Below are positions 25,237 through 30,148 of a stretch of 64,000 nucleotides of DNA, one piece after another. Source of the DNA: Flexilinea flocculi (lineage in GTDB: Bacteria > Chloroflexota > Anaerolineae > Anaerolineales > Anaerolineaceae); the NCBI RefSeq assembly GCF_001192795.1, contig NZ_DF968181.1:921101-985100 (forward strand), given 5' to 3'. Numbering within the stretch: the stretch's first letter is position 1; every line of letters begins with the position of its first letter. The notes beneath the pieces were generated by a model. That model worked only from the letters and a program-made list of their open reading frames with translations. It had not been told where the DNA came from and ran no database searches. A program made the translations under genes and the position numbers.

Positions 25237-25273
25237 GAAAAAGAAAAATTCTTCTCAACGAAAGGGGAAAATA

Positions 25274-28200
25274 ATGAGACGATCTGACAAAAAAACTTTG
25301 TTTTGGACACTTTTGTTGATTGTGATTACAGTTTTCTCCTTAGTGTTTATCGATGCTGCAGGATATGCGGCTGATCCTGGATCTGATGCAATTGTTGACA
25401 ATTTTCTGACTGTCAATCTTCAATTAAACTCACCTGATCCTGTTAACTTCTCCGGAAAAACCGGCGATGATGTGCTGTTATTGCTTTCGGCTTCCCTTTC
25501 AGAGACTACGATCGGTTCCGCAAGTTCGGCTACTGTTAAAATTTACGTGGATGAAAATGAGATCCAAATGCCGACTTTGGCAAGCGGGAAAATGTTTTCT
25601 AACGGATCAGAAATACTATTAAAAACCGATCCGGAATCCGGTGTTCGATATATCACATTTGATATTCAGGCTGGCGAATCGGTCAATGCACAAATCTTTT
25701 TTACTGTTCCAAACGGAATATCTCGAAATGGTATTTCTGCCACTTTATCGACTTTTGCATATGATGCTGCAGGAAATGAAATTACAGATGCTTCTAATGT
25801 AAACATTACAAGAAAAGTTGTCATGACGTGGAATGCAATTCATCAATGGGATCCGGTTGAAGAATCTGTTTCTCATTCAATTTTGAAAATGAATGCTTCT
25901 CAGAAATTACCAGAGGCAATAACCTATTCGATTCATGCGGCTTCCTTAAATACTGTCGAATCCGGTATTATTTTTACGAAACATTGGTCAATCGAAAATA
26001 TTCTTACATTTCCACAGGGTATTTCACTGCCGGATGGAGAGGCTTCAACGAAGGACGGTATATATTTTCTGGCGGAATTACCATTTATTGAAACAAATTG
26101 TTCCGATGCCAGTTTTGAACTCACCGATTCCAGGCACCTGGTTGTCCAATGCGATATGCAAAATCTGTCGTTGAATGCCGAAAACAATAAACAGGAAATT
26201 TCGAATCCGGATATTAAAATGATTTTGTATACAGAACGATTAGGACTGGATCCTGATTCTTTTCAGGCGGATCAGCCAACTATAATCCGCAGCGATGTCC
26301 GTTTCCTGGAAACATCCTTTTTCGATGTAGAAACAGTGAGCTCAGTTTTTCAGGAAACTGAGATTCCAGAGCCCGCTCCAGATTTCCAGATCACGAAAAG
26401 TGCCAGCCTTTACGATAGTCAAAAAGAACCTTATTCACCGGATGTTCAAACAGTCGTTCTGCATGATTTCATTCGATATGATATCGTTGTGGAAAACAAG
26501 GGCGCCATAGCCGGTACGGTGGATGTGGTTGATTCAATCCCGTTTTATACCGTTTTTTCAAAATTTGAAGAAGGAGATTCAATTGGCAAACTGCTGACGG
26601 ATGGTGATCAATCCCTCAATGTAGTCTGGTCTGATCAGACGTTTGCTGCAGGAGAAATCCGACATTTTATTTTCTATGTTCAAGTAACACAACAGGGATC
26701 GAATCTCGCGCAGGTTGATAATTTCGCTTATGTGATAACCGATTCCGATGAGAAATTACGATCGAATACTGTTTCGCATAAATTTGCCCAGGTTGAACCC
26801 GATATCCGTCTCAATAAAAAAGCAATCGATCAAGAGGGGAAAGAGATTTCATCGATCCATGAAAGTCAAATTCCCTCGCTCTTTTCTTATCAGATCGAAA
26901 TCCATAATTTCGGAGTTGAGGATGCCGTCAACCGGAAAGTGGCTGATCCACTTCCGGATTGTTTCGATTTCGTCAGTGCAGATAAAGCTTATTGGATGAA
27001 TTTGAATGGAGAGAAGGTTTTCATTGGGAGTGATCCTGTTTATGATTCTTTGACTCATACAGTAATTTGGGAAAACCTGAATATCCCAGGATCTCGTTCT
27101 GGCACAAATATTGTCAATCTGATAGTGCAGGTTCACTTGAAAAATGACGATTTTTTGCAGGATGGTTCGGTCGTAAATAATGAAGCAATCATTTATGACG
27201 ATACGAATGAAGAGGACAGAACCACATCCGAGGTCATTTACAAAGTTAATCCAATTGGTTTCGAAAATCAGGACGGTCAGAATCCTGGAAACCAGAATCA
27301 AAAATTATCACTTTCTCTTCAAAAAAGCGTTTTAGCGATTGGCACGATTAATGAAGAAAATCAGCAATTGGAAAACTTTAAAAGCAGCTTGTTTCAATAT
27401 CAATCCGGTGTTGACGACGGTATCCTCTTCGATGTTTTCCTGTGGAATGACACAGAAAGCACGAAGCTTCTTCCCGTTGATCTGCTGATTGATTGGCTGC
27501 CGGAAGGTTTCCAATACCGAGGGATCACACGGGTAACAGATTCAAAAATTGGCGCTGATTCCGTTACAACCAATGCGGAGTCGGAACCGAATTATCCGGT
27601 ACAATCTGAGAAAGCTTTTTCCCGAATCTCAGCGGTCATCCATGCCGATTATCGTGTTGAAGAAAGAGCGATCTTGTTTTCTGTACAAGGTTTATCTGGC
27701 GAAAAGGTATTCCTGGAACCTGGGCAATGTATTGAATTTGGAATCATTTGCCAGATTGAAAAGGAACAGGCGAATAATCTGTCATCTCAAAACCATATTG
27801 CCTTCGGGTTCAATCCGACTCAAGATGGTTCTTTATTTCCAGAAATTTCAGATCAGGCTGTATTTATAATTACAAGAGATTCATTGCCTTCCAACATCAG
27901 TGAAAATGCTAAAAAATTATCTATCGCAGAATCAAGCCTTTATGCTGAAGTCTCAGGAAATTCCGATCTGATCTGGTATGAAACTTCCGTTTCGGTCGCG
28001 CCGGCTATGATTCTGCCCGGTGTGAAAAAAGAAGCGATCATGCAGCGACATGGTGGCAGCGCAGCCTCTTTCGTGGAAGAAACAGAAATTGGCAATGATC
28101 GTCAGATTGAAGCACAGGCTGATGTGCAGTGGAAAATTACAATATCCAATTTTGCAACACATCAGAATTTAATGAATCTGCCGATTGAAAATTATGTTGT

Positions 28201-30148
28201 CAAGGATATTATCCCGGTTCCATATTCAATTCCAACCGTTTCAGAAAATTACCCCGGCGGATTCATCCCTATATTTTCTCTTTTTGATTCATCCGGATCC
28301 TTAGTCAAATCGATTATCATCCCGGAGTCAGCTCAAACGGTTACGTATCGTACCGTTGTTGAAGAGGCCGGCAGTGAAACTTTATCACTTCAAGTTCCTA
28401 CGATCCAATGGATGCTGAATGGTGATGATTACGAAATTCCTGATGGATATTATGCGGAAATCTCTTTTTGGACAATCTATCATAGCCCTGTTCAGGAAAC
28501 TGGCAGTTTTACAAATACCGTTGAAATTACTTTTTCACAGGAATTCAATAAAAATCATGTAAACATTGGGACCGTTCTTGCGGATGGGAAGACAATTTCT
28601 GCCTTTGACACAGTCTTTTTCCGGGGCGCTTATCAGTCTTTTTCGTACATGATGGTGACAGACCTTTCTGAAATGAATTCAGGCAGCGGGTATGGGTATG
28701 ACGCCGAGCATAATGCGATTGAGACAAAAGGACCGGGCGCTCCTATTGAATATACGATGAATATTTCGAACAGCAGTTCGAGAGAATTCAAAAATCTGGT
28801 TGTGATCAATAAATTACCGGCGGCTGGAGATTTCGGCAACATCAATCTGCAAAGCCGTCGCGGCAGCGACTTCTCAGTCCTGATGGATGTAACAAATCCA
28901 GTTACGGTTTCGGTAATTGATGCTGTTGACACAGGTTCAAAACCGATTGTGACGATTGATCCGTCTCATTTCCGTGTTGAATTTACAGCAAACACTGCGT
29001 TTACCAAATCGGAGTGGAGCGGACAAGACAGCCACAATTTCCATGCCGATTACGATCCAAACCGCGATACCGGTTTTCGTATTGTATTTGACGAGAGTGT
29101 AAGATTACAAGAACGGCAAAGCCTGATGATTCAATATCATGCAATCATTGGGGATGATGCCCGGTCAGGAGAAACAGCCTGGAATACATTCGGTTATGCT
29201 TATCAGGAAATTTCCGATCAAATTGTGTACGTTCCGGAACCGACAAAGGTGGGCGTCCGAATCAGCCAGCAGGCTGCTGTTTCATATGGCAGAATTCGAA
29301 TAGAGAAGACTGATCAAAATGGTTCTGCATTGGCTGGCGCCAGTTTTACAATCTATTCTGATTTTCGGTTAGCGAATCCTATGGAGACAATCACTACAGA
29401 TCCTGATGGATTTGCCTTATCGAATTTATTGCCGTTGGGAACATATTGGGTGCGGGAAACCGCAGCGCCCAATGGATACATTGGGTCAAATCGGATTTGG
29501 ACTGTGGAATTGTCTATGCCAGATCAAACGGTGCTTGTCAATGGACGACCGATCCATAATTATCCCATTCAGCCTACACAGCCGCAGCCGATTACAACGC
29601 CACCCAATCTGCCTACACCAACCTCAGGATTTGATATTCCATTTCTTCCGGAAACAGGATTCCCCGCAAACCGAAAAGCGCCATTAAGTGAGCAACCTGC
29701 AGGTCTCCTTTATAAAACAACCGGATTTACACTGGAAATTCCGATTCTTAACGTAACAACCGATATCGTATCAATTCCGATAAATGAAGGAAAATGGGAA
29801 GTCAAATGGCTGGGAAATCAAGCAGGTTTGTTCAACGGAAGTGAGATTCGAGAAAATGAGCCGATTTATATTGCAGCTCATAATCATCTAAATACGGCTG
29901 AAATCGGACCTTTCCTGTTGATCAAAGATTTGAAGGAGAATGATCGAATTTTTATTACCGATCGTGAGGGAATTATGCGGCAATATTCGGTTTTTGAAAA
30001 CTTGCTGGTTGAACCTGATGCATTTTCCAAAGTTAAAGAAGTTGCTGAATCCTGTAAAGGATCTTTAATCCTGGTTACATGTGAACAGGAAATGGAATCA
30101 GGCGGGTATGCATATCGCAGAGTTGTATTTGCACAGCCAGTCGGATAA
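25274..30148 (+). CDS. Giant surface protein with DUF11-like repeats, SpaA-like domain, LPETG motif and its own C-terminal sortase domain
   Basis: 1624 residues from the ATG at 25274 (AAAGGGG six bases before it; an upstream in-frame start at 25235 lacks a site). Signal peptide about 1-34. Several beta-sandwich modules of the DUF11/adhesin type follow, e.g. FIRYDIVVENKG, FSYQIEIHNFG, IEYTMNISNSSS. A SpaA-like Cna-B domain (about 1339-1432) has RIRIEKTDQNG and LPLGTYWVRETAAPNGYI. A Pro/Thr/Gln linker leads to FLPETGFP (LPETG at 1458-1462, DNA 29645-29659). The last 145 residues form a sortase fold: IYIAAHNH (His about 1536), LILVTCE (Cys about 1603) and YAYRRVVF (Arg about 1615-1616). No hydrophobic anchor or basic tail follows LPETG; the sortase domain takes that place. 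Related architectures seem to occur in other Anaerolineae, from memory. Confidence 0.85.
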   Translation: MRRSDKKTLFWTLLLIVITVFSLVFIDAAGYAADPGSDAIVDNFLTVNLQLNSPDPVNFSGKTGDDVLLLLSASLSETTIGSASSATVKIYVDENEIQMPTLASGKMFSNGSEILLKTDPESGVRYITFDIQAGESVNAQIFFTVPNGISRNGISATLSTFAYDAAGNEITDASNVNITRKVVMTWNAIHQWDPVEESVSHSILKMNASQKLPEAITYSIHAASLNTVESGIIFTKHWSIENILTFPQGISLPDGEASTKDGIYFLAELPFIETNCSDASFELTDSRHLVVQCDMQNLSLNAENNKQEISNPDIKMILYTERLGLDPDSFQADQPTIIRSDVRFLETSFFDVETVSSVFQETEIPEPAPDFQITKSASLYDSQKEPYSPDVQTVVLHDFIRYDIVVENKGAIAGTVDVVDSIPFYTVFSKFEEGDSIGKLLTDGDQSLNVVWSDQTFAAGEIRHFIFYVQVTQQGSNLAQVDNFAYVITDSDEKLRSNTVSHKFAQVEPDIRLNKKAIDQEGKEISSIHESQIPSLFSYQIEIHNFGVEDAVNRKVADPLPDCFDFVSADKAYWMNLNGEKVFIGSDPVYDSLTHTVIWENLNIPGSRSGTNIVNLIVQVHLKNDDFLQDGSVVNNEAIIYDDTNEEDRTTSEVIYKVNPIGFENQDGQNPGNQNQKLSLSLQKSVLAIGTINEENQQLENFKSSLFQYQSGVDDGILFDVFLWNDTESTKLLPVDLLIDWLPEGFQYRGITRVTDSKIGADSVTTNAESEPNYPVQSEKAFSRISAVIHADYRVEERAILFSVQGLSGEKVFLEPGQCIEFGIICQIEKEQANNLSSQNHIAFGFNPTQDGSLFPEISDQAVFIITRDSLPSNISENAKKLSIAESSLYAEVSGNSDLIWYETSVSVAPAMILPGVKKEAIMQRHGGSAASFVEETEIGNDRQIEAQADVQWKITISNFATHQNLMNLPIENYVVKDIIPVPYSIPTVSENYPGGFIPIFSLFDSSGSLVKSIIIPESAQTVTYRTVVEEAGSETLSLQVPTIQWMLNGDDYEIPDGYYAEISFWTIYHSPVQETGSFTNTVEITFSQEFNKNHVNIGTVLADGKTISAFDTVFFRGAYQSFSYMMVTDLSEMNSGSGYGYDAEHNAIETKGPGAPIEYTMNISNSSSREFKNLVVINKLPAAGDFGNINLQSRRGSDFSVLMDVTNPVTVSVIDAVDTGSKPIVTIDPSHFRVEFTANTAFTKSEWSGQDSHNFHADYDPNRDTGFRIVFDESVRLQERQSLMIQYHAIIGDDARSGETAWNTFGYAYQEISDQIVYVPEPTKVGVRISQQAAVSYGRIRIEKTDQNGSALAGASFTIYSDFRLANPMETITTDPDGFALSNLLPLGTYWVRETAAPNGYIGSNRIWTVELSMPDQTVLVNGRPIHNYPIQPTQPQPITTPPNLPTPTSGFDIPFLPETGFPANRKAPLSEQPAGLLYKTTGFTLEIPILNVTTDIVSIPINEGKWEVKWLGNQAGLFNGSEIRENEPIYIAAHNHLNTAEIGPFLLIKDLKENDRIFITDREGIMRQYSVFENLLVEPDAFSKVKEVAESCKGSLILVTCEQEMESGGYAYRRVVFAQPVG

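Follow-up and report, generated by a model that had tools for sequence, protein, structure and literature searches.

The window, a 64,000-nucleotide stretch of the Flexilinea flocculi genome, contains on its forward strand a gene in which a surface protein, an LPETG motif and a sortase domain are fused (25274..30148, +). The open frame runs from an ATG at 25274 to a stop codon at 30148 and codes for 1,624 amino acids; a Shine-Dalgarno-like sequence, AAAGGGGA (25261..25268, +), is located 5 bases 5′ of the ATG. An N-terminal signal peptide (25274..25372, +), recognized in the sequence (RRSDKK, a hydrophobic core, ..AGYAA) and in a hydropathy scan, is followed by the passenger (25373..29287, +), a stalk with DUF11-type repeats that were matched by Pfam DUF11 in two stretches and by NCBIfam TIGR01451 in three. 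Next come a SpaA prealbumin-like domain (residues 1339–1422; 29288..29539, +; Pfam PF17802, E 8e-18), a Pro/Thr-rich spacer visible in the sequence (residues 1423–1457; 29540..29644, +) and the sorting motif LPETGF (residues 1458–1463; 29645..29662, +), whose predicted cleavage site is Thr1461/Gly1462. A linker of 23 residues (residues 1464–1486; 29663..29731, +), APGxVTxLPxQP-like in relatives, connects the motif to the sortase domain (residues 1487–1623; 29732..30142, +).

The sortase domain was detected with Pfam Sortase PF04203 (E 5e-13 for the whole protein and 1e-14 for the tail alone), with scores of 49–55 bits against a curated cut-off of 26.6. Its catalytic residues are His1536 in AAHNH (29879..29881, +), Cys1603 in LVTCE (30080..30082, +) and Arg1615 in YRRVV (30116..30118, +). 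The first-pass annotation had reported this combination of LPETG and sortase domain in one protein, with the SpaA domain ahead of the motif and the three catalytic residues in the same positions, and our analysis agrees; it had also placed Thr1461 exactly, but its motif span (1456–1463) started one residue early. The hydropathy scan of the whole protein supported another of its statements, that no membrane anchor follows the motif: the only hydrophobic segment was that of the signal peptide (residues 8–26), with none after LPETG and no membrane helix and basic tail directly behind LPETGF. The gene stands alone in the window, between upstream genes that we take, from reading their sequences, to be ThyX/Dcd-like and a convergent gene on the other side that is presumably threonyl-tRNA synthetase-like; no second sortase gene or pilin gene cluster was found among these neighbors.

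Predicted sortase fold and position of the motif

AlphaFold models were obtained for the tail of the window protein (21 sequences; pLDDT 88, pTM 0.86) and for a homologous tail with a deeper alignment, L049 (90 sequences; pLDDT 95.6, pTM 0.90). Compared with solved structures, both had a sortase fold (Foldseek E 6e-10 for the window tail; Z up to 16.3 and 17.7), as expected from the earlier reading. A sequence search of solved structures was topped by HIV-protease look-alikes (E 0.004 and worse), which we regard as chance matches, given that the fold comparison returned sortases at Z 16–18. Profile, catalytic residues and predicted fold place the domain in the sortase superfamily, but no cut-off of a named class was reached: NCBIfam scores were far too low for class F (25 bits vs 166), class C (25 vs 160) and class E (18 vs 160), and the structure comparison left classes A, C and E tied. 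Thus, the “class E/F-like sortase” of the first-pass annotation is right as to sortase, but its class label is insecure.

In the L049 model, pLDDT was 94 for the segment LPDTGFAPGV and 95 for the ten residues behind it, and no secondary structure was present there. Motif and linker are thus predicted to be ordered without secondary structure, which suggests that they are packed on the sortase domain. For the majority of class A and E sortases, structural alignments began at model residues 32–38 (about 32 in the L049 model), past the linker; for the majority of class C sortases, they began at about residues 4–12 (about 4–8 in the L049 model) and included the motif. If an ungapped reading is assumed, LP of LPxTG in the L049 model coincides with the lid DP of 3RBK, 2WTS and 4G1H and is shifted by one residue in 2W1J and 4G1J, and the window-tail model agrees within two residues; this correspondence is read from alignment ranges rather than coordinates, and such sortases were part of the AlphaFold training data. 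The published positions of the lid are at Asp49-Pro50-Tyr51 in 3RBK, at Asp58-Pro59-Trp60 in S. pneumoniae SrtC-1 and at Asp84-Phe86 in 4G1H. It has been reported that the class C lid is a pseudo-substrate, DP(W/F/Y), whose proline overlaps that of LPAT in SrtA (PMC3493515). The models suggest that the motif of the fusion proteins lies where class C sortases hold this pseudo-substrate lid.

Conservation of the motif and catalytic residues

The first-pass annotation had made its proposal depend on LPETG being conserved ahead of the domain. All 105 non-redundant homologous tails carried an LPxTGF-type motif, always in the equivalent position. Its first position was L in 88, I in 11 and M in 3 tails, P and G were invariant (105 each, zero entropy), T occurred in 102 (S in 3) and F in 103 (Y in 2), and position x was free (3.4 bits). 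The catalytic His and Cys were present in all 105 tails, and Arg was conserved in 103 of 104. So that the motif played no part in the selection of homologues, a profile restricted to the sortase core was also used; with it, the motif was found within 60 residues upstream in each of 113 fused cores and in none of 11 motif-free cores (0/11), mostly short free-standing sortases. Free-standing Chloroflexota sortases carry no LPxTGF motif. This distribution indicates that the pairing of LPETG and sortase is not due to chance. A motif would be free to drift if the sortase acted only elsewhere, and so would the catalytic residues if another sortase did the work; neither has drifted.

Two apparent exceptions were rejected. 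L071 is not a homologue without the motif: its passenger has been lost, the upstream frame stops and the sortase piece is separate. Similarly, intermediate-scoring sortases of families f67 and f70 have a different architecture and do not represent loss of the motif. In f67, fourteen to sixteen sortase-like matches per genome were seen in G305 and G339, several of them in a row on one G305 contig (C134, 11–27 kb).

The same module elsewhere in the Flexilinea flocculi genome

A search of the whole genome (3.5 Mb, 3 contigs) with the Pfam sortase profile gave 11 matches, which correspond to nine fusion genes, one of them represented by two pieces, and a single free-standing sortase, a membrane protein of 311 amino acids. 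The motifs ahead of the sortase in the nine fusions were LPETGF (twice), LPGTGF, IPDTGY, LPSTGF, LPCTGF, MPNTGF, LPPTGF and NPLTGF. These paralogues have no passenger in common: DUF11/PKD repeats (in a protein of 3,594 amino acids), a subtilase and Listeria-Bacteroides repeats were found, and several passengers had no known domain. The presence of unrelated passengers on the same module points to a common anchoring role. The subtilase, which bears an LPSTGF-sortase module (L014:5814–8177), illustrates that a passenger can be an enzyme.

The ninth fusion gene, that with NPLTGF, is interrupted by an insertion sequence (L018:6969–11871 and upstream; contig C2, about 594.8–600 kb). Two tandem, near-identical copies of this element, with a 518-amino acid frame, are present, and the C-terminus of the sortase lies beyond them (L011). 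Besides, long HCEEGxSPTxQSLF-like peptide repeats are located beside a fusion gene (L013:9559–12024); the repeat was also seen in L015 and L016 and resembles a dispersed intergenic repeat.

A profile search of the same genome with Gram_pos_anchor gave no match above the cut-off. A DNA pattern search revealed one conventional LPETGF protein that this profile had missed, so further conventional anchors may have escaped as well. It has 700 amino acids (P0006; L267:5216–7318; contig C1, 364.2–366.3 kb), an N-terminal membrane helix and a C-terminal end composed of LPETGF, a helix and RTKNRMK, and from its sequence it is a candidate substrate for a sortase acting in trans. Its gene is downstream of an apparent FtsA/PilM-like ATPase gene. 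The genome also encodes Mur ligases and penicillin-binding transpeptidases, which makes peptidoglycan a plausible acceptor for anchored proteins.

Distribution across Chloroflexota

The first-pass annotation had mentioned similar LPxTGF-sortase ends in other Anaerolineae. Of 201 Anaerolineales genomes surveyed, about half have the motif-linker-sortase module. The tail model was matched in 184 of these 201 genomes, with a best match below 1e-45 in 99, a level at which nearly all the cases listed have the complete motif-linker-sortase form. When 298 genomes from the class and 400 from the phylum were searched, matches over the full length of the model were essentially limited to this order; the rare exceptions came from other families within the class (G188 and G105). 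Outside the order, matches began about 25–30 residues later in the model and were mostly in short frames, and thus look like free-standing sortases. When named genomes were scanned, 79 loci were obtained, almost all from records labeled Chloroflexota or Anaerolineae; a single Acidithiobacillus record probably reflects wrong binning. The plasmids searched yielded one match only, also from Chloroflexota.

Across the order, the module is found on unrelated passengers, including DUF11 repeats, subtilase and an ice-binding domain, and repeat stalks reach 3,800 amino acids. Most relatives checked also have, like F. flocculi, a free membrane sortase. In G365 (97% complete, 1% contamination), the only Pfam sortase match was a complete fusion with, in order, a signal peptide, an ice-binding domain, a Thr-rich stalk, LPETGF and the sortase, which implies that this protein is processed either by itself or by something other than a Pfam-detectable sortase. 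Similarly, the fused domain was the only Pfam sortase found in G371 (89% complete). In four loci (L115, L153, L166 and L175), two fusion genes adjoin each other; in the first three, a large fusion (over 3,500 amino acids) is followed by one of 1,500–1,700 amino acids that ends in IPVTGF.

A proposed mechanism of self-anchoring

We consider it probable that the window gene encodes a one-gene self-anchoring surface protein, whose sortase domain cuts its own Thr-Gly bond and passes the passenger to an amine on the cell surface. Several observations favor this reading: the motif is conserved along with the catalytic residues, G365 has no other Pfam sortase, unrelated passengers share the module, the models suggest that the motif lies at the position of the class C lid, and engineered target-LPETG-sortase fusions react in this manner. 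In the proposed sequence of events, the fusion protein would be exported by Sec, and the C-terminal sortase domain would be the last part to fold, with the LPETG that immediately precedes it placed in the domain's own active-site groove. Cys1603 would then attack the Thr1461–Gly1462 bond of its own chain, leaving a passenger-Thr-thioester and a linker that now begins with a free Gly1462. The thioester would be resolved by a cell-surface amine, in the simplest case that of a peptidoglycan stem peptide or lipid II; peptidoglycan is probably the acceptor. At the end, the passenger would be bound covalently to the surface, and the sortase would be set free as a fragment of about 163 residues. The cut site, same-chain cleavage, the identity of the acceptor and anchoring rather than shedding are steps that we infer. 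A self-cleaving, self-anchoring system of this kind had been suggested in the first-pass annotation; self-cleavage with anchoring by a single gene is the best-supported reading, with cleavage and transfer as predicted steps. The same arrangement would allow cutting between neighboring molecules. In addition, the free membrane sortase of F. flocculi could act on the same motif, and a protein whose fused domain has no membrane anchor could diffuse off before transfer.

This last feature would also suit a timed release, in which the domain hydrolyzes its own LPETG with water, a free passenger is secreted and the domain acts as a self-removing chaperone or tag. Engineered SrtA-LPETG fusions do self-cleave. 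However, sortases are generally poor hydrolases, stalks of the length seen in this order fit surface display better than secretion, and a fully conserved LPxTG-type signal, instead of a simple protease site, fits transpeptidation; we therefore regard release as unlikely.

Polymerization, in which the LPETG of a neighboring molecule is cut in trans and joined to a subunit lysine to give a pilus-like covalent fiber, appears improbable. The SpaA and DUF11 modules do resemble pilin or adhesin parts, some relatives have side-by-side fusion genes and the structural similarity takes in pilus-type class C sortases, but neither the window protein nor any of 51 complete fusions had the YPK pilin motif. 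Moreover, paralogues of one genome share no passenger, G365 has a single fusion, the window gene stands by itself, and one passenger is a subtilase. Unrelated passengers on one module suggest a common acceptor rather than partner-specific polymerization. Accordingly, the self-polymerizing alternative put forward in the first-pass annotation was not upheld.

It is also very doubtful that a free-standing sortase anchors the protein while the fused domain ignores its own LPETG and serves, for example, other LPxTG proteins. Such a division of labor would accommodate the free membrane sortase and the conventional LPETGF protein of F. flocculi, but not the joint retention of motif and catalytic residues (105/105), nor G365 and G371, where no Pfam sortase other than the fused domain was found. 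Finally, a permanent lid, with LPETG never cut but inhibiting the active site of a sortase that is thereby regulated and attached to an adhesin, is highly improbable even though the models appear to put the segment where class C sortases carry their non-cleaved lid, because a pseudo-substrate lid of the DPW/F/Y kind avoids a cleavable motif, whereas the cleavable T-G form with a free x is kept here.

Comparison with known systems

In known sortase systems, enzyme and substrate are separate, and one membrane sortase serves many proteins; here, each fusion protein seems to carry its own single-use sortase. Conventional LPXTG wall-anchored proteins resemble the fusions in their signal peptide, long surface stalk and LPxTG near the C-terminus, but end in a membrane helix and basic tail where the fusions have a sortase domain, which in principle makes a separate sortase unnecessary. 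Class C sortases resemble the fused domain in its predicted sortase beta-barrel, and the segment ahead of the barrel, which matches their lids by alignment range, may lie over the active-site groove as they do. In the fusions, however, this segment is a real LPxTG joined to a passenger, N-terminal helices, membrane anchor and pilin cluster are absent, and the NCBIfam class C score is below its cut-off.

The nearest mechanism is that of STEPL (sortase-tag expressed protein ligation), an engineered chain of target protein, LPETG and sortase that frees the target and links it to a glycine nucleophile (PMC11561820). Similarly, the BISOP fusion, srtA-LPETG-target, self-cleaves (PMC2901362). Both unite substrate, LPETG and sortase in one chain, but they are engineered and based on sortase A, and BISOP has the reversed order; the Anaerolineales fusions are natural, have a conserved linker, have a sortase that is not a Firmicutes SrtA and occur on secreted proteins. 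The arrangement has thus been built artificially; we found no published account of a natural LPxTG-sortase fusion in the open-access literature, a weak indication of absence as most subscription papers lie outside that scope.

On balance, we lean toward viewing the fusions as a natural, order-wide class: a portable LPxTGF-linker-sortase cassette whose lid is its own cleavable signal, which replaces membrane anchor and separate sortase, is used once and then discarded; within the order, substrate and sortase would have been fused in two or three independent events. If so, it would explain how a major filamentous, hard-to-culture group of Chloroflexota attaches very large surface proteins, and would be one of few handles on covalent surface anchoring in this phylum. 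Nature would then have reached the same design as a biotechnology tool, and the module would also provide a ligation cassette that is self-contained and has its native linker.

A second type of fusion

In a tree of 68 sortase cores, fusions of the type described above (type 1) grouped together, apart from free-standing sortases and from a second type of fusion, with a weakly supported root. Type 1 as a single clade was rejected by a one-clade test (p 0.013), the broken member L071 being nested inside it. Type 2 fusions (L182, L184, L185, L189, L191 and L197) are likewise composed of a surface protein and a sortase in one chain and come from the same order, but they have a full conventional sorting signal and, between passenger and sortase, two membrane helices and a long stalk (passenger, LPGTG, two membrane helices, Pro-rich stalk, sortase), and they lie on separate branches of the sortase tree. 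This LPGTG architecture formed a starred group of its own (7 rows). Within Anaerolineales, substrate and sortase thus seem to have been fused on more than one occasion. A similar pair with IPVTGF, L186 and L187, was located elsewhere on the core tree.
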